Of a DNA stretch of 47,874 nucleotides, positions 1,532 to 25,405 are shown one piece after another. Under the pieces are notes generated by a model. That model was not told the origin of the DNA, did no database searches, and saw only the letters and a program-made list of their open reading frames with translations. The stretch comes from a virus. The stretch is from positions 1 through 47,874 of the IMG/VR virus record IMGVR_UViG_3300017771_000017. One strand, 5' to 3'. Position 1 is the first letter of the stretch, and the number at the start of each line of letters is the position of its first letter. The position numbers were made by a program, and so were the translations under genes.

Positions 1532-1633
1532 ATGAATAAAACAGAAATGAAAGAAAATAGAAAAACAGGCCCTACGACATCCCTTTATAGGGGTGTAGGA
1601 GATAGCAATATTGTAACGGAGGAATACGAATGA
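1532..1633 (+). CDS. Small hypothetical protein, 33 aa
   Basis: Frame preceded by AAAGGAAGTGAAATA, a fair ribosome binding site, and ending in an ATGA overlap with the Gly-Gly protein gene. The product (MNKTEMKENRKTGPTT...) is hydrophilic and may be unstructured. Its coding sequence carries a hairpin (1571-1599), so translation of this leader-like frame could influence the next gene. Whether the peptide matters or is only a translational coupling device cannot be told from the sequence. Confidence 0.4.
   Translation: MNKTEMKENRKTGPTTSLYRGVGDSNIVTEEYE
1571..1599 (+). other. Hairpin inside leader ORF upstream of Gly-Gly protein gene
   Basis: CCTAC (1571-1575) pairs with GTAGG (1595-1599), and ATCCC (1579-1583) with GGGGT (1590-1594), leaving a 3-base bulge and a TTTATA loop. 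It lies 31 bases before the next start codon. It may be an RNA control element, or chance structure. Confidence 0.3.
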
Positions 1634-1830
1634 TTAAATTAAGGATTTTGAATGAAACAGGACACACCGACTTAGTAATGGAAAGCGAAGGCATTCTTGA
1701 CCAAATAGACTCTCACCCTACCCATTGGGTATTTGTTGATAGTGTAATGGTAACAAGAGAAAACATAGCAGAAATCAACTGGGATGAAGTAACATCTGTG
1801 GATTTAACACCTGCTATCGTTGGCGGATAA
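1630..1830 (+). CDS. Candidate ubiquitin-like beta-grasp protein ending in Gly-Gly
   Basis: A 66-residue protein whose predicted order is strand (IKLRILNET), strand (TDLVMES), helix (EGILDQIDS), strand (HWVFVDSVMV), then a short strand-rich C-terminus (SVDLTPAIVGG). That order fits the beta-grasp fold, and the chain ends exactly in Gly-Gly with nothing after it, as in mature ubiquitin-like modifiers and sulfur carriers of the ThiS/MoaD type. The same operon region encodes an E1/ThiF-like enzyme (6712-7269) and a JAMM protease (8251-8802), the usual partners of such proteins. The GGAGG at 1619-1623 fixes the start. The sequence features are seen; the fold and role are inferred. It could instead be an unrelated small beta protein that happens to end in Gly-Gly. 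Confidence 0.6.
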   Translation: MIKLRILNETGHTDLVMESEGILDQIDSHPTHWVFVDSVMVTRENIAEINWDEVTSVDLTPAIVGG

Positions 1831-1864
1831 ATACATTGATAAGCCGTACATAAGTTGCGAATTT

Positions 1865-1906
1865 GGGGTGGGGTGTGCCGCATAGCGGCATCCCTGCCCC
1901 TTTTTT
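1865..1906 (+). terminator. Hairpin plus T-tract terminator
   Basis: A GC-rich imperfect hairpin (1865-1900) has a perfect GCCGC-ATA-GCGGC top and a GGGG...CCCC base with two wobble pairs and a bulge, followed at once by six T (1901-1906). It stands out in AT-rich DNA and fits a factor-independent terminator closing the first transcript. It falls in an 89-base gap between genes; no clear TATA box is visible after it. Confidence 0.7.
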
Positions 1907-1919
1907 GAGTGTGGCTACT

Positions 1920-2297
1920 ATGGACTTACGCAACTTTATTTCTAAAGAAGCATTAAAGTTGTTTCTTGAAACTAAAGGGTGGAAATTACTAGACCCAATA
2001 GTTATAAATGAACAGGCTGTTTTTAAGCCTGACTTTTATGAAGAAAATTATATTATAGCACATGGCCGATATGGTCGAATATGTGCAAAAGGACATTCAA
2101 TTATAAATTATCGAGGTAATACTTTTGAAAGTGTTTCTTTGCTTCTCGAAAAATGCGGAGAAGACGCTATAAAAGATTTTGATAACTGGAAGTTTATTGA
2201 AGAAAAAGAGTGGGTTGTTCTCAAAAATGAAAACAATTGGTTATTTTTCTTTTCTAGTCTTTTAGAATTACCAAAAGCAAGTAAATATAGGTGTTAA
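1920..2297 (+). CDS. Hypothetical protein, 125 aa
   Basis: I start it at the ATG at 1920 because an in-frame start at 1863 would lie in the terminator hairpin. Upstream GAGTGTGG is a weak ribosome binding site. The protein reads as mixed alpha/beta: a helix (ISKEALKLFLETKGW), then strands around PIVINEQAVFK, YIIAHGRYGRICAKGH and WVVLKNENNWLFFF. No family recognised. It lies one base upstream of the ribonucleotide reductase gene and probably shares its transcript. Confidence 0.6.
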   Translation: MDLRNFISKEALKLFLETKGWKLLDPIVINEQAVFKPDFYEENYIIAHGRYGRICAKGHSIINYRGNTFESVSLLLEKCGEDAIKDFDNWKFIEEKEWVVLKNENNWLFFFSSLLELPKASKYRC

Positions 2298-2298
2298 T

Positions 2299-4164
2299 AT
2301 GACAAAAAATAAAACAATAGAAATACTATCGGATATAACGGTGCATATGAAATATGCTAGGTTTTTACCCGATAAAGAAAGAAGAGAAACATGGGATGAG
2401 ATAGTCTCCCGAAATGAAGAAATGCACATTAAAGCATACCCCCAATTAAGAGATGAAATAAATGAAATCTATACAAATTTTATCAGAACAAGAAAAGTTC
2501 TCCCGTCAATGCGTTCTATGCAATTTGGCGGAAAGCCTGTGGAAATCAGTCCGAACCGTGTGTATAACTGCGCTTATATGCCTATTGACTCTTATGTTGC
2601 TTTTAGTGAATCTATGTTTTTACTTCTCGGTGGAACGGGGGTTGGCTTTTCAGTACAAAGACATCATATCGAACAATTACCCGAAATCCAACAACCTAAT
2701 GACAGCAGAAAGCGTCGTTATCTTATTAATGATTCTATTGAAGGGTGGGCTGATGCTGTTAAAGTATTGATGGAATGTTATATGGGAATTAAGAAAGATA
2801 GCCCTAAATTTGATTATTCTGATATTAGACCTAAAGGTTCTATTTTAAAGACATCTGGTGGAAAAGCGCCGGGACCTCAACCTTTGCGTGAATGTTTAGT
2901 AAAGGTAGAAGGTATTCTACAAAACATGCCTAATGGCTCAAAACTTGATTCTGTTCAAGCACACGATATTATGTGCCATTTAGCCGATGCTGTATTAGCC
3001 GGAGGTATTCGTCGTGCCGCCATGATTAGTTTATTTAGTGCAGATGATTCAAAAATGCTTGCTTGTAAAGCAGGTAACTGGTGGGAAAATAACCCTCAAA
3101 GAGGTAGAGCAAACAATTCTGCTGTTTTATTGCGACATAGAATAGATAAAGAATTTTTTATGTCAGTTTGGGAAAGAATACAAGCAAGTGGTTCGGGAGA
3201 GCCCGGAATTTATTTCAGTAATGATAAAGATTGGGGAACTAATCCTTGTTGTGAAATAGCACTACGACCTTTTCAATTTTGTAATTTAACAGAAGTAAAT
3301 GCTTCTACTATTGAAGGACAAAAAGACTTAGAAGATAGAGTTAAAGCGGCAACATTTATTGGAACATTACAAGCAGGATATACTGATTTTCATTATTTGC
3401 GTGATATTTGGAGAAAGACAACAGAAAAAGATTCTTTACTTGGAGTTTCTATGACAGGTATTGCTTCTAATGTTGTTGAGAAGTTAGACATCGAATCTGC
3501 TTCTCTTCAAGCCAAACTTGAAAACCATAGAGTTGCTAAGATAATAGGAATTAATGAAGCAAGTAGAATTACTTGTGTTAAACCAGCAGGAACAACTTCT
3601 TTAGTTTTAGGAACAAGTAGTGGAATACATGCTTGGCATGATAATTATTATATTCGTCGTGTTCGAGTTGGAAAGAACGAAGCAATATATGGATATTTAT
3701 TGAATAATCACCCAGAATTAGTAGAAGATGAATACTTTAATCCTGATGAACAAGCGGTAATTAGTATTCCTCAAAAAGCACCAGAAAATGCAATTACTCG
3801 GAGCGAAAGCGTATTTGATTTGCTTGAAAGAGTAAAGCAATTCAGTATTCGTTGGGTTAATAATGGACATATTGATGGAATGAATACCCACAATGTATCG
3901 GCAACAATTTCAATCAAAGATGATGAATGGGATGATGTTGCAGAATGGATGTGGTTCAATAGACACTATTACAACGGTCTTGCTGTATTGCCGTATGACG
4001 GAGGAACATACAAACAAGCACCCTTTGAAACGATTACCAAAGAAGAATACAATAACATGTATTCGCTTTTAGGTTCAATTGATTTGACTAAAGTAATCGA
4101 ATCCGAAGACAATACTGACCTTTCGGGTGAACTGGCTTGTGCCGGTGGGCTTTGTGAGATTTGA
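2299..4164 (+). CDS. nrdJ: Adenosylcobalamin-dependent (class II) ribonucleotide reductase
   Basis: Makes deoxynucleotides from ribonucleotides using a B12 radical. The 621-residue chain is of the monomeric RTPR type. It shows the N-terminal redox Cys in YNCAYMPID, the glycine-rich LLLGGTGVGFSVQ, the active-site run NPCCEIAL...FCNLTEVN, and a C-terminal CAGGLC pair that would re-reduce the active site. It is shorter than the roughly 740 residues of the Lactobacillus enzyme. No class I radical subunit gene lies beside it, as expected for class II. The start has AGGTG five bases upstream. Cobalamin would have to come from the host or its surroundings. Ends just before a TTG-initiated gene. Confidence 0.93.
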   Translation: MTKNKTIEILSDITVHMKYARFLPDKERRETWDEIVSRNEEMHIKAYPQLRDEINEIYTNFIRTRKVLPSMRSMQFGGKPVEISPNRVYNCAYMPIDSYVAFSESMFLLLGGTGVGFSVQRHHIEQLPEIQQPNDSRKRRYLINDSIEGWADAVKVLMECYMGIKKDSPKFDYSDIRPKGSILKTSGGKAPGPQPLRECLVKVEGILQNMPNGSKLDSVQAHDIMCHLADAVLAGGIRRAAMISLFSADDSKMLACKAGNWWENNPQRGRANNSAVLLRHRIDKEFFMSVWERIQASGSGEPGIYFSNDKDWGTNPCCEIALRPFQFCNLTEVNASTIEGQKDLEDRVKAATFIGTLQAGYTDFHYLRDIWRKTTEKDSLLGVSMTGIASNVVEKLDIESASLQAKLENHRVAKIIGINEASRITCVKPAGTTSLVLGTSSGIHAWHDNYYIRRVRVGKNEAIYGYLLNNHPELVEDEYFNPDEQAVISIPQKAPENAITRSESVFDLLERVKQFSIRWVNNGHIDGMNTHNVSATISIKDDEWDDVAEWMWFNRHYYNGLAVLPYDGGTYKQAPFETITKEEYNNMYSLLGSIDLTKVIESEDNTDLSGELACAGGLCEI

Positions 4165-4173
4165 GGTGATTTT

Positions 4174-4512
4174 TTGTTATCCGTCAAATCCTACCGTTCC
4201 TTGTCATTCGAGGAACTTAGGAAGGCGGTATTATCACTATTGAATGATTTCAGTAAGGAATCAAGAAAGAGAATACTTCTAGCATTAGAAGTTTGTGAAG
4301 ATTTAGACCCACAAGACAAAAGGTTTCGGTTAGAACAAACAATAAATTTATGTTTATGGGATTTCGACGAAGCAGTTTCTATAGGGTTTGAAAAATGGAA
4401 AACACAGAATTTCTTAATGAGATGCGAAGCAATTAAATATCACGAAGAAAATAAAGATGAATGTGATGGAGATTGCGAGGTTTGTAAAATATCATTTAGG
4501 TGGAAATCATGA
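4174..4512 (+). CDS. Hypothetical protein with C-terminal Cys cluster, 112 aa
   Basis: Starts at TTG (4174), supported by GAGGTG five bases upstream; no ATG is available near the front of the frame. Residues 1-85 are predicted helical; the tail has CDGDCEVC (CxxxCxxC), a likely metal knuckle. It overlaps the next small gene by ATGA. No family recognised. Confidence 0.65.
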   Translation: MLSVKSYRSLSFEELRKAVLSLLNDFSKESRKRILLALEVCEDLDPQDKRFRLEQTINLCLWDFDEAVSIGFEKWKTQNFLMRCEAIKYHEENKDECDGDCEVCKISFRWKS

Positions 4513-4673
4513 AAGAAAAAGACCCAAAATATGTTACTAGTCATAGGACTTATAAGAAGAGAATAGCAACTTCTTGCCGCATTTGCGGCCAACAACTGCT
4601 ATTACCAGAAGAAATAAAAAAAGAGATACATAATGATTGTATTAATAAAAATGACAATATATATATGATGTGA
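4509..4673 (+). CDS. Small zinc-finger protein, 54 aa
   Basis: Frame begins in an ATGA overlap and ends 4 bases before the next start. It encodes a basic N-terminus (MKEKDPKYVTSHRTYKKR), CRICG, and later HNDC, giving a likely Cys2-His-Cys zinc site. Size and layout are like the other short zinc proteins here (22569-22718, 31018-31161). Function unknown. Confidence 0.6.
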   Translation: MKEKDPKYVTSHRTYKKRIATSCRICGQQLLLPEEIKKEIHNDCINKNDNIYMM

Positions 4674-4677
4674 AAAT

Positions 4678-5880
4678 ATGGAAGAAAAAAGAAAAATAAA
4701 TATTTATTTAGAGGTTAAAAAACCAGATGATAGTGGAGAATATTATCCAGAAATTGAGGTTTCGAGTGATGCTTTCGGTGCTAGAAGATATAATGGCACT
4801 GTTTATAAAATAAACTATAATAGAAGCGCAAAAGACCCAATACACGATGCTTTATTTAGTTGGTGGAAAAAGACACTTAGTATGAAATTTTCACAATGGC
4901 GAAATTATGCAAATTTGAATTTCCCTGAGAATGAACCAGTTCTATTGTATATAGGTGAGTTGCCTTTGGCTTTATCTAGACAGAATGGCAGATTCAGATT
5001 AAATGGTAAAACCGAATCAATAGCCACTATTGCAAATGCTTTTGCTAGAGTAACTGTTACTGCTATGAGAGAAAATAACCCAGTAAAATTAATGACAAGC
5101 CTAATGAAAGTTTTGAGCCTTTCTGAGGATGTTAAGTATTGTCTAGAAAATAGAGCACCATTTCATTATTTTATAGATTTTGAAAAAATAGAAGTTCGTT
5201 TAAATGTTCAACAGATTTCCGAAAAGGAATGTGCTATTGAAATAAGCGATGGTCTTTGGGCAAATATATCAAATAAAGATTTAGATAAGTTTTGTACATT
5301 CTTCCTACATGGAAAAAAGATGGGCAAATTTAAGTTCATGGGAATTAAAAAACTATTTACTTATTTAATTGGTCATGAACCATCAAAACATGAACTTCAT
5401 TTGATGAAAGAGTTTTTAAGACAAAACAGACAACAGGATATTGTAGAAACAAGAGCATTAGAATTACTACACGAAATGGTAAATCAACATCCAACTAAAC
5501 TAAAATTAGTAATGGAAGAAAACATTCCTAGCATTCTGTATATCAAAGGTGCAGGATATGATTGGAAACTACAGAACAGCCAATTTAAGTCAGACATACA
5601 GATGGTTTCTACTTATGTTTATCAACCAAAACCACAATTCGATGAAGAAGGAATATCGTTGCCCCTTGCAGAATGTGATTGGACATGGAAAGGCCCGATA
5701 TGTATAGATAATATGGCTAAGGGTTCTTCACTTGGCGACCAGTTCGCTACAAGAGCCTTGGCTTTAATTAACGATACTCACACAATACAAATAGTAAGCA
5801 CTATCAAAAGATATTTGATAGCCCCTGAAAATACAAATAGGATTGAGAATTATGAGATGCTTAGAGTGCAAGACGAATGA
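4678..5880 (+). CDS. Unknown conserved-looking protein, 400 aa; possible E2-like partner
   Basis: I do not recognise a firm family. The N-terminal third (about 5-110) alternates strand-like and charged stretches; the middle (150-270) has HYFIDFEKIEVRLNVQQ and a long helical segment; the C-terminal third has LYIKGAGYDWKL and DWTWKGPICIDNMAKGSSL, followed by helices. The single Cys in GPICID, in a Trp/Gly-rich setting, recalls the loop around the active Cys of E2 conjugating enzymes. The gene sits between the Gly-Gly protein and the E1-like gene. That makes an E2-like role a testable idea, no more. Its last 29 bases overlap the TFB gene. Confidence 0.6.
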   Translation: MEEKRKINIYLEVKKPDDSGEYYPEIEVSSDAFGARRYNGTVYKINYNRSAKDPIHDALFSWWKKTLSMKFSQWRNYANLNFPENEPVLLYIGELPLALSRQNGRFRLNGKTESIATIANAFARVTVTAMRENNPVKLMTSLMKVLSLSEDVKYCLENRAPFHYFIDFEKIEVRLNVQQISEKECAIEISDGLWANISNKDLDKFCTFFLHGKKMGKFKFMGIKKLFTYLIGHEPSKHELHLMKEFLRQNRQQDIVETRALELLHEMVNQHPTKLKLVMEENIPSILYIKGAGYDWKLQNSQFKSDIQMVSTYVYQPKPQFDEEGISLPLAECDWTWKGPICIDNMAKGSSLGDQFATRALALINDTHTIQIVSTIKRYLIAPENTNRIENYEMLRVQDE

Positions 5881-6709
5881 ATTTGAGTACGATGAAGTAA
5901 TGGGTGAAACCGCATGTAAGGAATGTGGTTTGATAGTTCAAACAGAATTGTTTGAAGAAACTGTTAGAAGCATAGACTCTTCCGGCGAAATACATAGTAA
6001 AGAAACGACTTTAGGTACAATTATCGAAACTAATAGCAAGTTGAAGAAGACTCAACTTAGGTATAGTTCTAAAGATAGCCATATTAAAAAAGCAATTGTT
6101 TTCTCACACATGGTTTTATCAAATGTATCTAGCAGTACATCTTTAAGAGATAGAGTAGATGAAGTATATCGAGAATTATATTCAAAGAATATTTTCAATA
6201 ACTCACAGTCATTAGAAATAAGAGCAACAGCAGTTGTTTATTATGTCATGAAAGAAAACAAAACGCCCATCACAATTAAAGAAGCGTGTGTTGAGTTTAA
6301 TTGTTACGGTAAAAGACTTAATCGTTTAATTAGGAAAGTTAACAAACATTACGGTAATAGAATGAAAAAACTACAACCAGACCCACAATTTCTTTTAAAG
6401 AAAACAGCCAATAAGATTACAGATGACTTACTTTACATTTCTCAATGTATGGAAGTATTAGAGTTCTTTGAACCAATTGTAATTAAAATGGATTATAATA
6501 AGCGTAATGCTTATTATGAAAGCATTTGTTGGATAACAAAAAATATTTTTGTTCATCCATCAATAACATTGAAACAGATTGCAGAAAACGCTGATGCGTC
6601 ATGGTCTGCTATACAAAAACAAACCAAAGACCTTTTAGGTTTAATTGGTTTAAAAACTTGCGCCCAAGTAAAAGGCAAACAACTAAGTGAATTAGAAAGG
6701 AGAGAATAA
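5852..6709 (+). CDS. tfb: Transcription initiation factor TFB (TFIIB-like)
   Basis: Archaeal TFB recruits RNA polymerase to TATA/BRE promoters. The N-terminus carries the zinc ribbon CLEC...CKECG (residues 2-5 and 23-26), then a B-reader/linker-like region, then two helical repeats of about 90 residues each that fit cyclin folds (about 85-180 and 190-275, the second with a helix-turn-helix-like LKQIAENADASWSAIQKQ). The length, 285 residues, is close to that of cellular TFB. I take the ATG at 5852; an in-frame TTG at 5843 adds three residues. A viral TFB could redirect host RNA polymerase to viral promoters. It overlaps the previous gene by 29 bases and is followed two bases later by the E1-like gene. 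Confidence 0.85.
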   Translation: MRCLECKTNEFEYDEVMGETACKECGLIVQTELFEETVRSIDSSGEIHSKETTLGTIIETNSKLKKTQLRYSSKDSHIKKAIVFSHMVLSNVSSSTSLRDRVDEVYRELYSKNIFNNSQSLEIRATAVVYYVMKENKTPITIKEACVEFNCYGKRLNRLIRKVNKHYGNRMKKLQPDPQFLLKKTANKITDDLLYISQCMEVLEFFEPIVIKMDYNKRNAYYESICWITKNIFVHPSITLKQIAENADASWSAIQKQTKDLLGLIGLKTCAQVKGKQLSELERRE

Positions 6710-6711
6710 AT

Positions 6712-7269
6712 ATGAGAAAAATACTAATAATTGGAACAGGTGGTATTGGGTCATTCTTGACTCAATACTTAGATAAAGTCGGACTATACAACATTACTGT
6801 TGCAGACCCCGATTCAGTTGAAACTAAAAACTTAACCTATCAAAACTTCAAGAGAGGTCATGTTGGGCAGAATAAGGCCAGTGTAATGATGAATGAATAT
6901 GAATCAGTTAATCATTACTCTAAGTTTCCTATTCTTACAGAAAAGCAAATGCAAGGTTATGAATTAGTAATATGCTGTGTTGATAATTTGAGTGTTCGTC
7001 GAACCTTATACAACACAAGTATTAAATGGTTAGACTTACGGGCTCAAGGTAGGAATGCTGCTATGGTTAGCCATTTAGCAGACCCGAAAATGTATGACAC
7101 TCTTTTAGCAGGAAAAGACGGTTCGTTTAGTTGTCAAGGAGATTCATGGGATGGAACAAATAAGAATGTTCATTTTATGCAAGTAGTAATAGCAGGAATT
7201 GGCGCACAATGGATTCAAAGATTTTTTAATGAAGAAGAAGTGAAAGATTTTATGGTGGTGAATGTATGA
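6712..7269 (+). CDS. E1/ThiF/MoeB-like adenylating enzyme
   Basis: Enzymes of this family use ATP to activate the C-terminal Gly of a ubiquitin-like protein. The chain opens with the nucleotide loop GTGGIGS (residues 8-14), followed by VADPDSVETKNLTYQNF, which matches the family pattern of an Asp strand end and Asn-Leu...Gln, then GQNKA, and CCVDN with the conserved Asp. DLRAQGRNA and SCQGD (Cys near 142, a candidate catalytic or thioester Cys) follow. At 185 residues it is shorter than MoeB/ThiF (about 240) and lacks the zinc CxxC pairs. The Gly-Gly protein at 1630 is the obvious substrate candidate. ATGA overlap with the next gene. Confidence 0.85.
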   Translation: MRKILIIGTGGIGSFLTQYLDKVGLYNITVADPDSVETKNLTYQNFKRGHVGQNKASVMMNEYESVNHYSKFPILTEKQMQGYELVICCVDNLSVRRTLYNTSIKWLDLRAQGRNAAMVSHLADPKMYDTLLAGKDGSFSCQGDSWDGTNKNVHFMQVVIAGIGAQWIQRFFNEEEVKDFMVVNV

Positions 7270-8249
7270 ATAATAAAAAGACTATTTGGACAAAAGAAGT
7301 AATTGAATTTGTTAGAGAACAAAGAGATGCTAAAAATGCAGACTGGCGACAAATTGTTCGTCGGCTTAAACAACACTATAACATTACAACTACTAGCAAG
7401 AACTTACAGACTCAATATTGGCGAAAAAAGCAAAAAGCAAAAAATACAAATAAAAAGGAAAGTGAAAATATGAATTGGAAACATGAACCAGCAACAAGAA
7501 AACAATGCAAATATATTGCGAACTTAACGCAACCAAATGCAAGTAAAGCAATAAAGAAAGGAATAGAAGATGCTCTTTTTGCTCAGTCAATTAGTGGTAA
7601 CTTAACTAAGCAAATGGCTAGTGGACAAATTAATTCTTTGGAAAATATAACCAAAGAAGTAGAGGAAAAGCCTCAATCTAATAATAGAAAGGGCGTTATT
7701 AAGCGAAGATGGACAAAGAAAGAAGATGAACTTCTTATGAATTGCAAAAACGGTCAAGATTTACTTGCTCTTTCAAAAGAGATAGGTCGAACCTTGACAT
7801 CAATACGCCAAAGGTATTATGTAAATAAAAAATCTACAAGGGAGATACCAAAGTTGGAAATATTTCCGAAGAAGAAAACTAAGGCTTCTAAGAAAAAACC
7901 TAAGACGGAGTTAAATAAAAAGAAGCAATATAAAATGTGGACAAAAGAAGAAGATTTTGATTTAGTTTGTAATTTTTATGAATTATCTATTGACCAAGCA
8001 AAATTCCGCTTCAAAGGTCGCTCATATGGTACTATTGCTGCTAGACTAGAAAAGTTGGTAGATAGTGATAAGCCTGAAGTAAAAGCAATGCTTCTAGAAG
8101 CATCTATTATAATTAAGGCTCGAAAGAAGGCAAGCCAAGAACCAACTAAACTAAATCGTAAGCAACGAAGAGAATTACGAAAGCAGAAGAAACTTGATAA
8201 GAAGGCTGCAAAACTTGAAAATAAACTTAATAAGTTAAGAGGTGTTTAA
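7266..8249 (+). CDS. Myb/SANT-like DNA-binding protein with three repeats
   Basis: Three Trp-led helical units resemble Myb/SANT or MADF-like domains: WTKEVIEFVREQRDAKNADW (about 8-55), RRWTKKEDELLMNCKNGQDL...RTLTSIRQRYY (about 147-190) and KMWTKEEDFDLV...GRSYGTIAARL (about 223-268). Between the first two is a segment of the type PATRKQCKYIANLT...LTKQMASGQINSL, like a small 'KQ..YI..L...TK..AS..I' domain found in phage and bacterial proteins. Linkers and the C-terminus are very Lys-rich. A viral DNA-binding regulator or packaging protein is likely; the target is unknown. Encoded between the E1-like and JAMM genes. Confidence 0.7.
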   Translation: MNNKKTIWTKEVIEFVREQRDAKNADWRQIVRRLKQHYNITTTSKNLQTQYWRKKQKAKNTNKKESENMNWKHEPATRKQCKYIANLTQPNASKAIKKGIEDALFAQSISGNLTKQMASGQINSLENITKEVEEKPQSNNRKGVIKRRWTKKEDELLMNCKNGQDLLALSKEIGRTLTSIRQRYYVNKKSTREIPKLEIFPKKKTKASKKKPKTELNKKKQYKMWTKEEDFDLVCNFYELSIDQAKFRFKGRSYGTIAARLEKLVDSDKPEVKAMLLEASIIIKARKKASQEPTKLNRKQRRELRKQKKLDKKAAKLENKLNKLRGV

Positions 8250-8250
8250 A

Positions 8251-8802
8251 ATGGGAAAAATGAGTGATAAAGATATTGAAAACCAAGAAAAGTATGATTT
8301 TGATGATGATTCTGCATTTGAGTGGCATTTGCAAGTTGAAGGTGCAAGAAATGAAATTATTTCTTTCTTGCAAAAAAACTGGTCACATGAGTTTGCACAC
8401 AACGGAGAAGATGCGATTCATTCAATGACATGGATGTATTCTATTTGGTACGCTTCTACTGAAGTTCTGCCTAATTTAGAAGTACAGGTTGTTATTGATG
8501 CTAATAATAGAGCGCATATTTCTTCGGGTACTGCCGGATATGTAGATTTCCCTATGCCACCAAAGGGTTTGACTTTACCTATTAAGTGCTGGTATCATAC
8601 ACATCCTTTCGGTTCTGCTTATTTTAGTGGCACAGATTGGAATACTGTAAATACTTGGCAAAGTAGAATGAAGACAGCGTATGTTATCGGTGGTGATGAA
8701 CATTATGGTTTCTGGGAATATTCCGCCCCAAACATTCTAAGAATTAGAGAGAAAGACGGAAGAGAACGAATACAAAAACAACAAAGGAGTGAAGAAGAAT
8801 GA
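8251..8802 (+). CDS. JAMM/MPN-motif metalloprotease (JAB domain)
   Basis: The motif HTHPFGSAYFSGTD (about residues 118-131) is an exact H-x-H-x7-S-x2-D JAMM zinc site, used by deubiquitinating enzymes such as Rpn11 and AMSH and by bacterial and phage JAB peptidases. The upstream catalytic Glu is probably in YASTEVLPN, about 40 residues before it. The ATG at 8251 is chosen over a GTG at 8242 because GGTG there serves as the ribosome binding site. The N-terminal 20 residues are acidic; the C-terminus is charged and helical. With the E1-like enzyme and the Gly-Gly protein it forms the usual trio for making and removing a ubiquitin-like modification. JAB proteins also occur in phage tail assembly, but this gene lies far from the tail genes. 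Confidence 0.85.
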   Translation: MGKMSDKDIENQEKYDFDDDSAFEWHLQVEGARNEIISFLQKNWSHEFAHNGEDAIHSMTWMYSIWYASTEVLPNLEVQVVIDANNRAHISSGTAGYVDFPMPPKGLTLPIKCWYHTHPFGSAYFSGTDWNTVNTWQSRMKTAYVIGGDEHYGFWEYSAPNILRIREKDGRERIQKQQRSEEE

Positions 8803-9071
8803 AAAAAGGAGATAGTTGTACTTTTATGAGAAAAGGAATACCTATGGCTAATAAAGAGCCTATGCAAACAAAAGACAGAAACGATGCACATAAAGCCCGC
8901 CATCCTAATGATGGTGGTGTGCCCAAAAATAAAGGTATCACATGGGGTAAAGCAGGAAAAGCATCAAAGAAGTTGGATGAATTTTATAAAACACATATCT
9001 ATACTTATATTGATAAAGACATGAATCGTGCTTGGATTAGAATTGCAGGAAATAAGGAGGAAGAAGAATGA
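8799..9071 (+). CDS. Hypothetical basic protein, 90 aa
   Basis: Starts in an ATGA overlap with the JAMM gene and ends in one with the GroES-like gene. The first 60 residues are rich in Lys, Gly, Asn and His and look poorly structured (KARHPNDGGVPKNKGITWGK); residues 60-85 could form strands (HIYTYIDKDMNRAWIRIAG). No family recognised. Confidence 0.6.
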   Translation: MKKGDSCTFMRKGIPMANKEPMQTKDRNDAHKARHPNDGGVPKNKGITWGKAGKASKKLDEFYKTHIYTYIDKDMNRAWIRIAGNKEEEE

Positions 9072-12885: not shown

Positions 12886-14317
12886 AGAAAAAGAAACTTT
12901 CTTTGCTATTCTAGCACAAGAGTACCCATCAAACAATATTGGATTAGCAAAGGCTAAGAAATGGCTTACTAAAATGTATAACTGTTTTGATGATGAAATT
13001 GAACAAAAATATAATGTGCATGATGATTTAGGAGATGCTGTTTATTTCTTAGATGTATCTGCTAAAACACAAACTGAACATAGCCTATCTACATTTCTTA
13101 GAATACTTTCCTTAGATTGTGGTGGCGTAGATTCAAATGCTTATAGGTCAATAGATGCTTTTTTGACTGACCTTTCTGCTTTAGAAGCAAAATGGTTTGT
13201 TCGATTTTGGTTGAAGACAACTCGTAATGGTTTGCGTGATGGTGTGGTTAAAAAGATTATAGCCAAACATTATAATAAGAAAATTTCAGTGGTTAAGAAG
13301 CATTGTAATTTCAATTCTATCAAAGATGTAGTATCTTACTATGAGCGTAATGAAGTACCACCATGTAATTTAACACACGGAAAGTTTATTTCACCAATGC
13401 TTGCTAAAGAAATACCCATGAAGAATTGGCCTAGTAATGCTATTGTTGATTATAAGTATGACGGTAATCGTTATCAAATACACAAGGATAAAGATAGCGT
13501 TATTATTTTTAATAGAAAGGGTAAAATTGTAACGCCCCAATTTTCGGATGTCGCAGAACTTGTTAGAAACTATGAGGTTGTAAAGGCTATATTCGATGGT
13601 GAAATTTATCCGATAAAGCAAGACGGAACGCCCGATGAGCATAAGAAAATGGGTACTAGAGTACACTCTAAAGACCATGCCGATGCTATGGAAAGAGTGC
13701 CGGTTCGGTGGGTAATTTTTGATTGTTTAAAGTGGGAGGAACAGACTATTATGGATTTAACATATTTACAAAGACTTGATACTTTCAAGAATAATCCCGA
13801 CCAAGCACATAGAATGAGTAAGGGTGGCGACATTCTTGCATTTTATAATAATGCAATAAATGATGGTTTTGAAGGCATAATTGTAAAAGACCCTTCATTA
13901 CCTTATCAAGCAGGAAAGCGTAGTGTTGGTTGGGCTAAATACAAACCACCACAAATTGAATTAGATGTAGTTATTCTTGCGGCTTCTTATGGTGAAGGTC
14001 GTAGGTCAAATGTATTCGGTACATTTGAAATAGGCGTTAAATCGGATAATGGATTTGTTAATGTTGGTTCTGTAGGTACTGGCTTTTCAGATGATGATTT
14101 GATTTCACTTACTAATAAATTAAGAACAATTGTTGAAGAATATAAAGATGGCCGGTATGTATTTTTGCCAAGAGTCGTTTTAGAAGTAAAGGCTGACTTA
14201 GTAAGTCAAGATGCAAAAGGAAATTTAGGTCTGCGTTTCCCTAGAAAAACACGAATTAGAAATGATAAGTTCGTAGCAGACATTAACACTATTGAAGATG
14301 TGGAGAGATTAAAATGA
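12788..14317 (+). CDS. lig: ATP-dependent DNA ligase
   Basis: Seals nicks, joining Okazaki fragments. The 509-residue layout matches archaeal LigI-type enzymes: an N-terminal DNA-binding domain (1-195), an adenylation domain with the nucleotidyl Lys in KYDGNR (K223), IFDGEIY, EGIIVKDP and GWAKYKP, and an OB domain from about 385. It is about 50-100 residues shorter than cellular archaeal ligases. Start supported by AAAGGAGG 8-15 bases upstream. The following histone-fold gene overlaps by ATGA. I see no PCNA-binding motif at its N-terminus. Confidence 0.93.
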   Translation: MTMIKMTRLMEATQDLNPTQQVTLISRELENFEEKETFFAILAQEYPSNNIGLAKAKKWLTKMYNCFDDEIEQKYNVHDDLGDAVYFLDVSAKTQTEHSLSTFLRILSLDCGGVDSNAYRSIDAFLTDLSALEAKWFVRFWLKTTRNGLRDGVVKKIIAKHYNKKISVVKKHCNFNSIKDVVSYYERNEVPPCNLTHGKFISPMLAKEIPMKNWPSNAIVDYKYDGNRYQIHKDKDSVIIFNRKGKIVTPQFSDVAELVRNYEVVKAIFDGEIYPIKQDGTPDEHKKMGTRVHSKDHADAMERVPVRWVIFDCLKWEEQTIMDLTYLQRLDTFKNNPDQAHRMSKGGDILAFYNNAINDGFEGIIVKDPSLPYQAGKRSVGWAKYKPPQIELDVVILAASYGEGRRSNVFGTFEIGVKSDNGFVNVGSVGTGFSDDDLISLTNKLRTIVEEYKDGRYVFLPRVVLEVKADLVSQDAKGNLGLRFPRKTRIRNDKFVADINTIEDVERLK

Positions 14318-14763
14318 TAGAAGTTGGAGGATTAACGGTAATAGATTTTAAAACATATACTTGTCTTGAAATTGACGAAGAGGGAATGGCACACCTAAAA
14401 GATGTTACTACTGCCCAAGGAAGACCAAAGAAAATGAGAGCAACACTTGTTCCTTATTTTGAAAATGGAGAATTTATTACTCCCGAACAGGAGCCCCTCG
14501 AAAAGCATAAGATTAAAACTAAACTTAGCATAAGAAAAATAGCAAAAGAAGAAATCGAAATGCCATTAAGTAATTCGGCAGTTAAACTAATAGCAGAATG
14601 GGCAGATACAGCAATAAGAAATATGGCTATAAATGCACAGAAGAATGCAATTCTAAGAGGTAATAATACTATTACTGCCGCCCATATTTTTTGGATGGAA
14701 ACGAATATGCAAGTAGAAGGCTATTGGCCTACTCAGTTAGATTATGTTAAAAAGGAGGATTAG
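14314..14763 (+). CDS. Histone-fold protein with N-terminal extension
   Basis: Residues about 71-126 align without gaps to archaeal histones such as HMfB from the Ser that begins helix 2 to the end of helix 3: S-x-x-A at 86-89, R102, A105, A108, K110, A112, G116, then TI at 119-120, A122 and I125 fall at the same spacing as in HMfB, including the final Gly...Thr-Ile-x-Ala-x-x-Ile loop and helix. Upstream LSIRKIAKEE matches the first helix (IxxIxK). Archaeal histones dimerise and wrap DNA. Residues 1-70 are a strand-rich extension absent from cellular archaeal histones, and about 20 residues follow the fold. It could package or mask viral DNA, or act as a TAF/NF-Y-like regulator. Lies between ligase and clamp-loader genes. 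Confidence 0.75.
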   Translation: MIEVGGLTVIDFKTYTCLEIDEEGMAHLKDVTTAQGRPKKMRATLVPYFENGEFITPEQEPLEKHKIKTKLSIRKIAKEEIEMPLSNSAVKLIAEWADTAIRNMAINAQKNAILRGNNTITAAHIFWMETNMQVEGYWPTQLDYVKKED

Positions 14764-20169: not shown

Positions 20170-20933
20170 AATTCGTAGTAAATAATAAACAAATGGAGAA
20201 AGCACTTTCGGACATACAAGGTAAAGGAAAGTATCTAGGTAATGGTGGGCTAAGTTCATCAAAAATGGGAACATACTTCTATATGACATTAACAGACAAT
20301 GTACTGGAAATATGGAACGGAGATATGACATTTGGATTAAACATTACAGTTGAAGTAACTGGAATAAGAAACGGTGCTTTTATTGGCGATGCCGCATTAA
20401 TTATACCTTATCTCAAAAAGTTTGGTGAAGATGTATTGTTTGATGTTGGTGACTTTTTGAAACTTACTTCGGGTAATAGAAAGGCTTCTTTGCCAATGGT
20501 AGTTAATCATCCAAATATGGAATCTATTTCCCGTATTAGGGAAATGGTGAAGCACATATCCTATGAAGAAGAATTAGATAAACTTTGGTCTTTTGGAGCG
20601 CATAATTTTGAAGGTGCATTTAAACTGAGTAGTGAAACATTTAAAGAAGCATTAGGGCTTTGTGAATTAGTGAAGAGTGGTGTTTATAAATTAAATTATC
20701 TTGGTGGTAATGTAACCTTTTCAAGTAGAACAACTGCTTCAAATCAATATGAACAAACAATTCAATTAGCATTAGCGATGGGAGAAGATGCAACCCTTGA
20801 GTATTCGGGGCCTTTGCACAATTTCTTTGATAAAGAACAAATCTTAAACTTTTATATTAAGGATGAATTTCCTTTACTTATTGTAGCAAACGATAGAAAA
20901 ATATTGAAAGCCCCGTATTCGGGTGGTAATTAA
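20166..20933 (+). CDS. pcn: Putative sliding clamp (PCNA/beta-clamp family)
   Basis: A 255-residue protein, the length of PCNA, lying between clamp-loader partners and polymerase. Domain pattern: LNITVEVTGIRNGAFIGDAALIIPYLKKFGEDVLFDVGDFLKLTSGNRKASLPM follows the clamp order of a strand, the helix that holds 'L...lk', and the strands 'v.f...d..l.l..g..k..l'. The C-terminus FPLLIVANDRKILKAP matches the last clamp strands before the 'LAP' end. Two such domains can be traced. Direct sequence likeness is weak, so the family is inferred from pattern and context. Two other proteins here carry PIP-box tails that would bind it. Confidence 0.65.
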   Translation: MKFVVNNKQMEKALSDIQGKGKYLGNGGLSSSKMGTYFYMTLTDNVLEIWNGDMTFGLNITVEVTGIRNGAFIGDAALIIPYLKKFGEDVLFDVGDFLKLTSGNRKASLPMVVNHPNMESISRIREMVKHISYEEELDKLWSFGAHNFEGAFKLSSETFKEALGLCELVKSGVYKLNYLGGNVTFSSRTTASNQYEQTIQLALAMGEDATLEYSGPLHNFFDKEQILNFYIKDEFPLLIVANDRKILKAPYSGGN

Positions 20934-20934
20934 A

Positions 20935-22572
20935 ATGATAATTAGTAAATGTATAGATGATAAACATATTTATTCTGCATGGAGAGAAAACGGAGAGCGT
21001 AAGTTTAACTTAGAAGCGTTTGACCCTTATTTCTTTATTGAAGATAGTGAGTTTGAACATGAGAAATATTCTGCTAGTAAGCATATTACTAGGCCCTTTA
21101 AATATGAAAAGGGTGATTGGGTTTCTTTAAAAGGAAAGCCATTGAAAAAAGTAATAGTAGAAAAAGCCAGTGATATTTACAAGGCTCGTAAAATGTGGAA
21201 TACTACTTATGAAGCAGATGTACCTTTTGGCTTTCGATATGCCATTGATAAGGTAGATAACATGCCGGAATATAAACTGCGTAAATGGTACTGGGATATG
21301 GAATGGCAACAAGGTGGAGAACATCATGATAAGATTACTACTATTGTAATGTATGATAATTATGATAAAGAGTATTATCAGTGGGCTTGGTTTCCTAATT
21401 ATGAAGGAGAAGAGTATTTACACTTTGATAATGAAAAAGAAATGATTGAATCCTTTATTCGAGTTATGGTAGATAAAGACCCTGATATGTTAATAGCATG
21501 GTTTGGATTGAAATTCGATTTGCCTAAATTGCTTGAAAGGTGTTGTGCATTGGACATCAACCCTATGCTTATGTCTCCAATTAACCGAATAGAAGGCGTT
21601 AAGAAAGCCGGAAATGGGTTTGTTTTCAGTAAGGGTGAAAGTGGATTCTCGCCCATACAACAACCATTAGGGGGCCGCATAACCCTCAATTTAGACCTAG
21701 CCTTTGAGAGACAGTGGAATGATTCACAAAGAGGAACATTACCCTCAATGAGTCTTGAATATGTTTCTCAAACATTATTCGGTGAAGGCAAATCAAAGGA
21801 AACTATTTTTGAAGACCCCAATGAATTTTATCGTAGGGGTTGGCTTGAAGATACAGAAGCATATTTAAAATATGCTATAATAGATGTTGAATTACTTGTA
21901 AGAATAGATGAAACAAACTTCTGTAGTGAGGCTATTATTGCTTTACAAAGATTGCTCAAAGCACCGTTTGAAGCGTGTTTTTATGCAAGCCATATGGGTT
22001 CTATTTACTTTATGCGTAATGCAGATTGGATTTGTAAGACTGGAAGTAAAGTCGATAAAAGAGAAGAATATGAAGGTGCTATGATATACGACCCTCTTAG
22101 TGAAGGTACAAATGGATTACATCTTAATGTAGCGGCTTTTGATTTTGCCGGATTGTACCCATCAATGATGATTGCTAGAAATATTTCTTGGGAAACTAAA
22201 AGTGAAGAACAGACTGAATTTGCAGTTAATATTGCAACTCCAAGAGACTTTAGCCCTGTAGAAAGAAAGCACATGTTGTATTATAAAACAGATAAATTAG
22301 GACTATTGCCGAGAGCAGTTCTTGAATTGAAAGAGTTGCGAAATGAATATAAGCGTCTTATGCGAGATGCAAGAGAAAGCGGGGATGATTTAGAAGCAGT
22401 TAAGTGGCATAATAATCAAATGGCTGTAAAGCGTTTAATGGCATCTTTTTATGGCATTGTTGCATTTCAAGGGTTTGGTTGGGCCGATGTTAATTTGGCC
22501 GCAAGCATTACTGCGAGTGCAAGAGAAGCAATTAGATTAGCGGCGTTTAAGGCAAAGGAGATGAAAGTATGA
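20935..22572 (+). CDS. polB: DNA polymerase family B, N-terminal fragment (exonuclease, motifs A and B)
   Basis: Replicative polymerase, first part of a split gene. It has the exonuclease motifs (D-x-E in WYWDMEW, about 121-123; FDLP in WFGLKFDLP; YAIID) and polymerase motifs A (DFAGLYPSMM) and B (KRLMASFYG). The chain stops right after LAASITASAREAIRLAAFKAKEMKV, where intact enzymes continue into motif C. The missing part is the gene at 24521. The last nine sense bases, ATGAAAGTA, are repeated as the first nine of that gene; joining them would give one frame of about 836 residues, a usual PolB length. Start at ATG 20935 after GGTGG, not the GTG at 20923. Confidence 0.92.
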   Translation: MIISKCIDDKHIYSAWRENGERKFNLEAFDPYFFIEDSEFEHEKYSASKHITRPFKYEKGDWVSLKGKPLKKVIVEKASDIYKARKMWNTTYEADVPFGFRYAIDKVDNMPEYKLRKWYWDMEWQQGGEHHDKITTIVMYDNYDKEYYQWAWFPNYEGEEYLHFDNEKEMIESFIRVMVDKDPDMLIAWFGLKFDLPKLLERCCALDINPMLMSPINRIEGVKKAGNGFVFSKGESGFSPIQQPLGGRITLNLDLAFERQWNDSQRGTLPSMSLEYVSQTLFGEGKSKETIFEDPNEFYRRGWLEDTEAYLKYAIIDVELLVRIDETNFCSEAIIALQRLLKAPFEACFYASHMGSIYFMRNADWICKTGSKVDKREEYEGAMIYDPLSEGTNGLHLNVAAFDFAGLYPSMMIARNISWETKSEEQTEFAVNIATPRDFSPVERKHMLYYKTDKLGLLPRAVLELKELRNEYKRLMRDARESGDDLEAVKWHNNQMAVKRLMASFYGIVAFQGFGWADVNLAASITASAREAIRLAAFKAKEMKV

Positions 22573-22852: not shown

Positions 22853-22944
22853 AATGTAAAAAACCAATAAAACACAACCCTCAATTTGAAGGAAAGATTA
22901 ACTGCAAACAATGTGAAAGAGAAGCAAAGGAGATGAAAGTATGA
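22849..22944 (+). CDS. Small Cys-containing protein, 31 aa
   Basis: ATGA overlaps on both sides. Contains a lone Cys at residue 3 and CKQC near the end, then KEMKV, the repeated tail. Could be a degraded zinc ribbon related to the 49-residue protein two genes upstream, made by the same duplication. Confidence 0.45.
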   Translation: MKCKKPIKHNPQFEGKINCKQCEREAKEMKV

Positions 22945-23564
22945 GTTGCGTATATTTTATTAGACATAAGACTACTAAACCTATTAAGATAGGTTATACC
23001 GAAAAAGACACACCCTTAGATAGAATTGCTACTATGGAAACAGGTAGTCCTTTTGGAATTGAATTATTGGGCTTTATTGAAACAAATAATGCTAAAAAAC
23101 TAGAAGTAGAACTACATGAAAAATATGATTCTTTTAGAACAAAAGGTGAATGGTTTGATATTTCTGAAGAAGAGGTAAAATCTATTCTTAAAGAACATAG
23201 CACAATAAATATAAATTCTCTTCAAATACTTAGGGCTTTCTTAATTAAAGAAAGGTTAACTCCAAAAGAAGTGACTGACATAGTTAAATGGCATAAACAA
23301 TATTATAGCCACCCAATAGATGAAGAAGTTCTTAGTTCAAGAAAAGAGTCGTTTAGTTTGGCAGTTAGTAAGTTTTACAAGGAAAAACTTATTCCTAAAA
23401 ATGAACAGATTGCTACAAAAGTCATAGTGACTTGGCTTTGTAAAGAACTTAACTTAAGTCGTTCACAAGTTTATAAATATATGAAAGAGTATAGAAGTGA
23501 ATTTTTTATAAATAAGAAAAAGGGAAGAGCGTCTTTTTTGTTGCTTAAGGAGTTGAAAGAATGA
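22941..23564 (+). CDS. GIY-YIG-type (T5orf172/MUG113-like) endonuclease
   Basis: Residues 1-90 follow the pattern of this GIY-YIG subfamily: VYFIRHKTTKPIKIGYT, Arg in LDRIATMETGSP, LLGFIETNNAKKLEVELHEKY and RTKGEWFDIS. The rest (about 100-207) is basic and helical with a helix-turn-helix-like LCKELNLSRSQVYKYMKEY, suited to DNA recognition. Such proteins are often homing endonucleases. Lying inside the split polymerase gene, it is the likely cause of the split. An alternative is an ordinary viral nuclease or DNA-binding regulator. Confidence 0.75.
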   Translation: MSCVYFIRHKTTKPIKIGYTEKDTPLDRIATMETGSPFGIELLGFIETNNAKKLEVELHEKYDSFRTKGEWFDISEEEVKSILKEHSTININSLQILRAFLIKERLTPKEVTDIVKWHKQYYSHPIDEEVLSSRKESFSLAVSKFYKEKLIPKNEQIATKVIVTWLCKELNLSRSQVYKYMKEYRSEFFINKKKGRASFLLLKELKE

Positions 23565-24416: not shown

Positions 24417-24524
24417 ATGTTTTTACTTATTAAAATACTAGTACGCTTTATTATTAACGATTTGAAAACATTCTATAATGGAGTAATTATGATTATTAGT
24501 GAAGGTGTGGAGGCTCAAAAATGA
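24417..24524 (+). CDS. Small hydrophobic protein, 35 aa
   Basis: Starts MFLLIKILVRFIINDLK, a short amphipathic or membrane-bound helix, and ends in an ATGA overlap with the second polymerase fragment; the last codons hold the GGAGG-like ribosome binding site of that gene. It may serve mainly to couple its translation. Confidence 0.4.
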   Translation: MFLLIKILVRFIINDLKTFYNGVIMIISEGVEAQK

Positions 24525-25405
24525 AAGTAGTATATGGACATACTGATTCTATTTATGTTCAAATAGATTCAGTTGAAGAAGCACAAGCGGCTATAAAAGA
24601 AATAGAATCTTCAGTGAGAGAACATTTTCCTAATGTAATGGGTCTTGAAAAACATCCTGTTGTTTTGGAATTTGAAAAGTATTATTCCGCATTGGGTGTC
24701 GGAGCAACAAAGAATAGAAATGCCGGTATGATTACTTGGGATGATGGAGAATGGTTAGAAAAACCAAAATTTACAATGACTGGATTTACTGCTAAGAGAG
24801 TAAGTGAAACTCCTTTTGCTAAAGAAATACAATTATCTATTCTAAAAAAGTGGGTTACAAAAGAACCATTAGGTAAAATAAATATTCATTTATTTGAAAT
24901 ATATCGTTCTGTTAAGAATGGAGAAATACCCATTTCTTCCTTAGTAAAACGAAGCAGATTAAAAAGTGAGAGATTTAAAGTAAAGTGTGTAGAATGTAAT
25001 TCTAAATATAACTTAGAAGATTGTATTAATTTTAAATGGTGTAAAAAATGCGGCACCGAAACAAGTAGATTTGTTACCTTACAAAACAAAAGACCTAGCG
25101 TAGGTTCAGGTATTGCCGGTGTTTTGTATGCTAAACAAAAGTTAGATATGACATTTGATGATTCATATTTATTTCTAAAAGTCAACCACGACGATACATT
25201 TATCAACCCGTTGACTAAGGAGGAAAAAGCAGTACAGTATATATCCGGCACAACCTATGAAGACTTCAATGATTATGAACCGGATTGGCTTCACTACGCA
25301 GAACAGGTCTTGAAAAAGGCAGAGCCCGTTTATAGGGCTATGGATTGGGACTTATCAAGCATAAGAACAGGAAAATTACAAACAAAATTGGATGAGTGGT
25401 TTTAA
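24521..25405 (+). CDS. polB: DNA polymerase family B, C-terminal fragment (motif C, thumb)
   Basis: Second part of the split polymerase. It opens with MKVVYGHTDSIYVQ, motif C, in which the first Asp of the usual YGDTDS is His; the second Asp, the metal ligand in RB69-type enzymes, is kept. A KxY-like motif (FTAKRVSETPF region) and the thumb follow, with a four-Cys zinc site (CVECN...CKKCGTE, about 147-177). The C-terminus LQTKLDEWF matches a PIP box, so this half carries the clamp-binding tail. It must assemble with the first fragment to be active. The ribosome binding site GGAGG lies at 24509-24513. Confidence 0.9.
   Translation: MKVVYGHTDSIYVQIDSVEEAQAAIKEIESSVREHFPNVMGLEKHPVVLEFEKYYSALGVGATKNRNAGMITWDDGEWLEKPKFTMTGFTAKRVSETPFAKEIQLSILKKWVTKEPLGKINIHLFEIYRSVKNGEIPISSLVKRSRLKSERFKVKCVECNSKYNLEDCINFKWCKKCGTETSRFVTLQNKRPSVGSGIAGVLYAKQKLDMTFDDSYLFLKVNHDDTFINPLTKEEKAVQYISGTTYEDFNDYEPDWLHYAEQVLKKAEPVYRAMDWDLSSIRTGKLQTKLDEWF

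Follow-up and report, generated by a model that had tools for sequence, protein, structure and literature searches.

The stretch of DNA analysed here, hereafter called the window, is the viral record IMGVR_UViG_3300017771_000017 of the IMG/VR database, a genome fragment of 47,874 bases. It encodes a small ubiquitin-like protein (Ubl), a compact E1-type activating enzyme of the ThiF superfamily and a metalloprotease of the JAMM type, which an earlier note on this DNA, made from the sequence alone, had singled out as a dispersed ubiquitin-like toolkit. All three open reading frames (ORFs) lie where that note had placed them (Table 1). Family matches identify in the same window a class II ribonucleotide reductase (RNR), a TFIIB-like transcription factor (TFB) and a chaperonin. 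A clamp loader subunit (RFC-S), a sliding clamp (PCNA), a family B DNA polymerase (PolB) and a DNA ligase were read from the sequence; their genes share one strand, and the virion genes lie on the opposite one. A tRNA search of the window found none. The gene list and the genome plan, as far as the 47.9-kb fragment shows them, agree with those of the Magrovirales, tailed viruses of 90-110 kb that have PolB, TFB, RFC-S, PCNA, ligase, a chaperonin and oppositely oriented virion genes (PMC10768690). By its gene content, the window is probably part of a magrovirus genome, a virus of the marine Poseidoniales archaea. We know of no cultured Poseidoniales host or magrovirus. Here, we describe the three genes and their neighbours, follow them through magroviruses and host chromosomes, and weigh whether they serve for protein tagging.

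Table 1 Positions of the genes of the conserved block in the window.
Feature	Position	Strand	Length (residues)	Remarks
Ubl	1630..1830	+	66	Gly-Gly is the very C-terminus; in most relatives 1-2 residues follow it
Cys-rich (CxxC...) small protein	4500..4673	+	57	Member of the conserved block, 123 loci
Candidate E2-like partner	4678..5880	+	400	Cys342 of W-x-G-P-I-C-I-D-N is invariant; constant member of the block
TFB (TFIIB-like transcription factor)	5843..6709	+		Directly upstream of E1; many host operons have a divergent TFB-like homologue
Compact E1 (ThiF superfamily)	6712..7269	+	185	Conserved nucleotide-binding residues; conserved Cys141 (S-x-S-C-Q) is the catalytic candidate
Myb/SANT-like protein	7266..8249	+		Between E1 and JAMM; about two thirds of loci; Pfam E 0.012, below cut-off
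JAMM/MPN+ metalloprotease	8251..8802	+		Glu76, His115, His117, Ser125, Asp128

Results

The chain of the window Ubl closes with LTPAIVGG, directly followed by the stop codon. The terminal Gly-Gly, which the earlier note had pointed out, belongs to the motif P-A-(I/V)-V-G-G, which is invariant across 63 distinct viral Ubl sequences. In 12 of these nothing follows the Gly-Gly, while 9 have one further residue and 42 have two; the tails of these 51 sequences are of 24 kinds. In this combination of a conserved Gly-Gly with a free tail, the viral Ubls resemble precursors that are processed, such as those of ubiquitin and SUMO. Comparison of the Ubl with near relatives gives a ratio of nonsynonymous to synonymous substitution rates (dN/dS) of about 0.02-0.09, and the protein is therefore under strong purifying selection.

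Searches with the single Ubl sequence against Pfam, PHROGs and NCBIfam gave no useful match, and a Ubl profile found no relative among the PDB sequences. The structure of the protein modelled with AlphaFold2 (AF2) is a beta-grasp with the order bb-a-b(b)-a-b and a flexible C-terminal tail, and its predicted local distance difference test score (pLDDT) is 93. When this model was compared with the PDB using Foldseek, the top matches were mostly ubiquitin, NEDD8 and SUMO together with one MoaD-type chain, with E-values of 0.01-0.05, which fail a threshold of 0.001 as is common for folds this short, and probabilities of 0.7-0.98. Among viral models, a Klosneuvirus ubiquitin-like protein ranks second. 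The fold test that the earlier note had called for thus came out in its favour, and the protein is predicted to adopt the beta-grasp fold of ubiquitin-like proteins. A profile built from viral and host Ubls also matches E. coli ThiS weakly (p 3.9e-4), end to end over the C-terminal two thirds.

The E1 contains the GTGGIGS and CVDN motifs from which it had been recognised, and a profile search confirms its family by a match to Pfam ThiF with E=2.6e-18 (66.5 bits, cut-off 28.1). Among NCBIfam models, its best matches are ThiF and MoeB, yet both are far below the cut-off. Residues that are at least 98.5% conserved in an alignment of 82 rows include G8, G10, G11, G13, S14, D32, K55, D91, N92, R96 and the S140-C141-Q142 segment. 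In the alignment with MoeB, D32, K55 and D91 of the E1 correspond to the ribose, Lys and D-N positions, respectively. The residues D32, K55, D91 and R96 are kept in the viral E1s and in 44 of 44 E1s of the Poseidoniales hosts described below, and the S-C-Q segment is present in these same 44. Cys141 of this segment is the strongest candidate for a thioester-forming residue.

The ATG of the JAMM gene at 8251 lies within a longer ORF that begins with a GTG at 8242. The motif of the protein, HTHPFGSAYFSGTD, corresponds exactly to H-x-H-x7-S-x2-D, as had been claimed for it. The single sequence matches Pfam Prok-JAB with E=3.9e-5, and its 23.9 bits fall slightly short of the family's cut-off, which is 25. 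Residues E76, H115, H117, S125 and D128 are at least 98.5% conserved in 81 rows, while most other positions vary. All 44 of 44 host JAMM proteins keep the metal and catalytic residues, with a motif spacing of x6 or x7. Of 80 distinct JAMM sequences, 75 have Glu-Glu-Glu as their last three residues (8791-8803 in the window), mostly as GAAGAAGAATGA overlapping the next start codon, and several further ORFs of the window end in EE or EEE. A functional role for this C-terminal EEE was set aside, as it mostly coincides with the ATGA overlap of the next start codon.

Relatives of the Ubl, the E1 and the JAMM protein were found in identical order in more than 120 IMG/VR loci, a recurrence far beyond chance; the counts of viral loci given here include near-duplicates, and the counts of distinct sequences do not. 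The genes form a block with the order Ubl, (RNR), 57-residue protein, candidate E2, TFB, E1, (Myb/SANT-like), JAMM and chaperonin, in which the genes in brackets are often missing. Scans of IMG/VR returned 46 loci through the E1 and 80 of 86 through the Ubl. The scan with the JAMM protein returned only 2 close relatives because this protein varies more, and tblastn on the fetched loci finds it in nearly all of them. In order to avoid sampling by the trio itself, 21 records were drawn through PolB or RFC. The E1, the Ubl and the JAMM gene are all found in the same 13 of these records and all absent from the same 8. Contig coordinates and the spacing in the window, where the Ubl lies 19 kb and the E1 about 14 kb upstream of PolB, indicate that all 8 end before the region; the trio is therefore present in 13 of 13 independently sampled records that span it. 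The three genes thus occur together in related viral genomes, which was the second test set by the earlier note, and they are core genes, nearly universal in magroviruses. Its word dispersed is accurate in so far as the three genes are not adjacent in the window, but they are members of a strictly conserved block, and the E1 and JAMM genes are adjacent in other viral lineages. One record of 184,733 bases, IMGVR_UViG_3300021958_000021, carries E1, Ubl and JAMM each in two versions that differ, and it probably represents two magrovirus genomes joined together.

When cellular species genomes were scanned with the E1 profile, matches were found on Poseidoniales chromosomes. An E1 match at E<=1e-10 is present in 95 of 194 Poseidoniales species genomes. 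About 9 of these 95 matches are partial (residues 2-106 or less, E near 1e-11), and generic ThiF proteins give such matches too; once they are discounted, roughly 85-90 of the 194 species carry a counterpart E1. The host E1 and JAMM genes are adjacent or fused. In one group of hosts, a Ubl with Gly-Gly and 1-2 further residues is encoded just upstream, and in another group the Ubl gene lies elsewhere and consists of two or three Ubl units joined head to tail, every one with G-G at its end, an arrangement that resembles polyubiquitin. All host Ubls keep the Gly-Gly save that of one locus (L233), which has AG instead. A Ubl was found in 16 of 16 E1-positive host genomes tested, in one of them only in part, where the contig ends, and in 0 of 10 E1-negative genomes; for the JAMM protein, the figures are 9 of 9 and 0 of 10. 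In the tested genomes, the host Ubl, E1 and JAMM are present or absent together. The host components are also found fused to each other, as E1-JAMM at about 11 loci, as Ubl-Ubl-E1 at two loci (L226 and L227) and as Ubl-candidate E2 at one (L216).

A provirus origin of the host loci was rejected, since their flanks are host metabolic genes. In many Poseidoniaceae, the E1-JAMM pair occupies a single fixed chromosomal site amid metabolic genes. In a tree of 23 viral and 44 host E1 sequences, which has no fixed root and includes some long branches, viral and host sequences fall into separate groups joined by a single branch; the support is 99/90 for the host group and 83/84 for the viral group, which is recovered in 85% of the bootstrap trees. 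This topology speaks against numerous recent captures. Almost every host locus encodes, after JAMM, a helical protein of about 80-100 residues, which in some loci is part of a longer ORF; it belongs to no known family and is a fixed member of the host set. Magrovirus contigs in Maricaulis and Altibacter metagenome-assembled genomes (MAGs), as well as Poseidoniales-type Ubl operons in MAGs of Acidimicrobiaceae and Verrucomicrobia, are probably misbinned.

The gene that lies between those of the 57-residue protein and the TFB is present in 125 of 125 viral loci having both TFB and E1. It drew our attention because of the host fusion at L216, where a Ubl is followed by a domain with the motif D-W-E-G-I-C-I. 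The profile of this gene gives weak single matches in host loci (E 0.07 to 30), to ORFs near the E1 that have the same C-terminal motif, and in an alignment of 30 such C-terminal domains one Cys and two Asp are kept in every row. Alignment by hhalign with four human E2s places the invariant Cys on the active-site Cys of the E2s and G-P-I-C-I-D on G-S-I-C-L-D (p=0.0088). The score of 21.8 was reached by 0 of 200 column shuffles (maximum 16.8), and unrelated and reversed profiles scored at most 13.8. The AF2 model of the whole protein has a pLDDT of 84 and a predicted template modelling score (pTM) of 0.56. Its top Foldseek matches include MED14, MED17, CENP-O, CENP-P and Ctf19-Mcm21, which we take to contain RWD domains, a non-catalytic form of the E2 (UBC) fold. 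Pfam searches with the protein and with its C-terminal domain gave only chance matches, and so did a PDB sequence search. An E2-like carrier is the most likely role that these alignments point to, and we give it roughly even odds.

At 12 host loci of the type in which the Ubl is adjacent, a TFB-like gene is found downstream of E1-JAMM. The viral TFB aligns with this host protein over the zinc ribbon and the following helices (hhalign 96.5%, p 8.5e-10), with a score of 76 where controls reach at most 21. From this homology and the position of the gene, we conclude that a divergent TFB belongs to the module in both viruses and hosts. The constant presence of such a partner suggests that transcription factors, or viral transcription, may be the target of the system or the process that it controls. 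There is a precedent for tagged basal transcription factors in archaea: TBP2 of Haloferax carries a SAMP-type modification and is degraded (PMC4895103).

The 57-residue protein has no match in Pfam. The C-terminal tail of one host E1 is Myb-like by eye, and a phmmer comparison of this tail with the Myb/SANT-like protein of the window gave no match. A functional tie to the RNR, suggested by its position beside the Ubl, was dropped, since about half of the loci lack the RNR. Elsewhere, a 149-residue protein (14314-14763) has a C-terminal part that resembles the histone fold of archaea, with a match to Pfam CBFD_NFYB_HMF that does not reach the cut-off (E 0.0047), and the ORF at 32-490 matches pyrimidine dimer DNA glycosylase weakly (E 5.9e-4, below cut-off). 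The polymerase PolB is split into the ORFs 20923-22572 and 24521-25405. A gap of about 2 kb, in which a GIY-YIG-like ORF (22941-23564) lies, separates them and may reflect an intron, an intein remnant or a split gene.

Comparison with known systems

The SAMP/UbaA/HvJAMM1 system of haloarchaea is similar in having an archaeal beta-grasp Ubl with a C-terminal Gly-Gly, one E1 and one JAMM protease. However, the E1 of the window scores 31.7 of 450 bits on the UbaA model and the JAMM protein 10.6 of 130 on the desampylase model. The candidate E2, the tails, the tandem Ubl genes and the TFB partner are features of the magrovirus/Poseidoniales set. The operon of Caldiarchaeum subterraneum (CsUb, E1, E2, RING E3 and CsRpn11) resembles it in encoding a Ubl precursor with residues after the Gly-Gly, which is trimmed there by a JAMM protease, Rpn11, with a cut exactly after the Gly-Gly (PMC6043591). 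The E1, E2 and RING of Caldiarchaeum are eukaryote-like, whereas the magrovirus set is viral, has a compact E1 and an E2 candidate without Pfam match, and no RING was seen in it.

The earlier note had compared the trio with Bil, PRTRC and type 6 systems of bacteria. Bil (BilABCD), PRTRC and other bacterial Ubl-E1-E2-JAB operons are reportedly the subject of work by Iyer in 2006 and Millman in 2022. As analogues that work alike, the comparison stands, but they are not families to which the magrovirus set belongs. In both cases a Ubl, an E1, a JAB protein and an E2, here a candidate one, travel together, and tandem Ubl repeats and RWD/E2-like proteins have been noted in bacterial operons (PMC1779556). 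In contrast, the E1 reaches 43.7 of 144.75 bits on PRTRC_ThiF, and there was no other PRTRC match among the window proteins tested. The magrovirus E1 is a single domain and BilD is a two-domain E1; no BilD match appears among the 25 families listed, and among the matches listed for PADLOC there are only generic E1-E2 models. The magrovirus set further differs from the bacterial operons in being found in archaeal viruses and their hosts, with a link to TFB.

The crAss-like phages also have, in the replication region of a tailed virus, adjacent Prok-JAB and ThiF genes with a remotely related compact E1. The identity is 26-33% over part of the E1, and the other components have no recognisable homology; gp78 and gp75 have none to the candidate E2. 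A close relationship was therefore rejected, and we regard the crAss-like genes as analogues. In three crAss-like loci the Prok-JAB and ThiF genes correspond to gp77 and gp76 of crAss001, and the N-terminus of gp79 is Ubl-like by eye with no family match. Baculoviruses and giant viruses encode viral ubiquitin, with the E1 supplied by the host; they share with magroviruses a virus-encoded modifier, whereas the magrovirus also brings the activating and the cleaving enzymes. A tblastn search of a phage collection found no relatives of the Ubl or the JAMM protein, and no E1 relative was among the haloarchaeal viruses listed. Three contigs binned with Methanoperedens carry a relative of the candidate E2 gene beside an E1 of magrovirus type, followed by a protein ending in THKGKGG, and a primase-like gene near one of these sets (L139) suggests an extrachromosomal element. 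On a Paceibacterota contig (L156, 9845-10994), the protein encoded after an E1 consists of tandem ThiS-like domains, two in number, and ends in IEGGGW (Pfam ThiS E 7.7e-7). Our literature search, outside which the founding magrovirus paper lay, found no description of a Ubl set in magroviruses or Poseidoniales.

Discussion

The earlier note had offered protein tags or the movement of sulfur as the two roles of such a trio. This remains the right pair of options, and the fusions, the tails and the candidate E2 tip the choice toward tags. We consider it probable that magroviruses carry, among their core early-region genes, a system for the activation, the maturation and probably the conjugation of a Ubl, and that it is the viral sister of a system encoded on Poseidoniales chromosomes. 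In such a system, the JAMM protease would trim the 1-2 residues of the Ubl tail and expose the Gly-Gly, and it should also reverse conjugates. The E1 would adenylate the carboxylate of the Gly-Gly and probably hold the Ubl on Cys141. The product of the candidate E2 gene would be the likely carrier, through Cys342, from which the Ubl may finally be attached to proteins. The precursor tails, the candidate E2, the link to TFB and the host counterpart go beyond what the earlier note contained.

Several observations speak against a tagging system. A Ubl, an E1 and a JAMM protease alone would suit a sulfur carrier equally well, and trimming is unneeded for about one fifth of the viral Ubls, including that of the window. 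The E1 is very short; it starts at the nucleotide-binding strand and is without the N-terminal Arg-finger region of MoeB and ThiF, and the Arg of the MoeB motif N-L-x-R-Q is replaced by Tyr in the viral E1 and mostly by His in the host. As for the candidate E2, the hhalign probability of the E2 match is only 4.6%, the Foldseek matches are weak (best E 0.016, prob 0.3) and spread across the whole chain, the HPN motif is absent, and there is no match to the Pfam E2 families (UQ_con / Prok-E2).

A sulfur-carrier module would consist of a Ubl like ThiS, MoaD or CysO whose Gly-Gly is turned by the E1 into a thiocarboxylate that delivers sulfur for tRNA thiolation, for a cofactor or for cysteine, and the JAMM protease would release the product, in the role that Mec has for CysO. 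The Ubl resembles ThiS both in length and through its weak match, and the E1 has ThiF and MoeB as its nearest, distant NCBIfam models. Archaeal SAMP/Urm1 proteins perform both tagging and sulfur transfer. Yeast Urm1 likewise does both jobs (PMC5349211). However, among those proteins of the block that could be identified, many others having no assignment, there is no rhodanese, cysteine desulfurase or thiolation enzyme. Variable tails, tandem Ubl repeats, a fusion of Ubl with the candidate E2 and a constant TFB partner would not be expected of such a module. We regard it as rather unlikely. The proposal that the three are accidental neighbours, namely an unrelated small protein and ThiF-like and JAB-like enzymes that merely resemble a set, draws on the other genes that separate them in the window; it is refuted by the same set in the same order at more than 120 viral loci, by the all-or-none pattern in host genomes and by the direct fusions in hosts, and we consider it extremely improbable.

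The two sister groups of E1 could also reflect conflict. If the host set served for antiviral tagging, the viral set could be a decoy or an antagonist that competes for the Ubl, reverses host tags with its JAMM protease or re-routes the tags. The absence of the host set from roughly half of the Poseidoniales species would fit this idea, and so would the tagging of phages by bacterial Bil systems and the many deSAMPylase-like JAMM proteins of the Borg elements of Methanoperedens, which have been proposed to counter host tagging (PMC12660748). On the other hand, the host E1-JAMM pair looks housekeeping in many Poseidoniaceae, where it sits at the fixed site among metabolic genes and in no defence island; the PADLOC matches listed are of the generic kind only; and a pure antagonist needs no complete, strongly conserved Ubl and E1 of its own. 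Counter-defence is thus a possibility to which we give a modest share of our belief, perhaps one chance among several. To a fuller form of the tagging hypothesis we extend a similarly limited credence. It holds that a ubiquitin cascade of the four-enzyme type (Ubl precursor, E1, a new E2 family and JAMM) evolved in Poseidoniales, became core in the whole virus order and modifies a virus-specific TFB or the host transcription machinery, so that transcription is reprogrammed; the host would direct its sister system, with its polyubiquitin-like precursors, at the same machinery.

To our knowledge, Ubl modification is mostly told as a cellular story, in which viruses take ubiquitin or encode proteases and rarely an activating enzyme. 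The set described here is complete, is nearly universal in globally abundant viruses of marine archaea, and has a counterpart in close to half of the sampled host species. This suggests that protein tagging may be an overlooked tool, or an overlooked battleground, in magrovirus infections. That archaeal viruses tag proteins, that an unrecognised E2 family exists and that Ubl tagging controls archaeal transcription have now become testable ideas.

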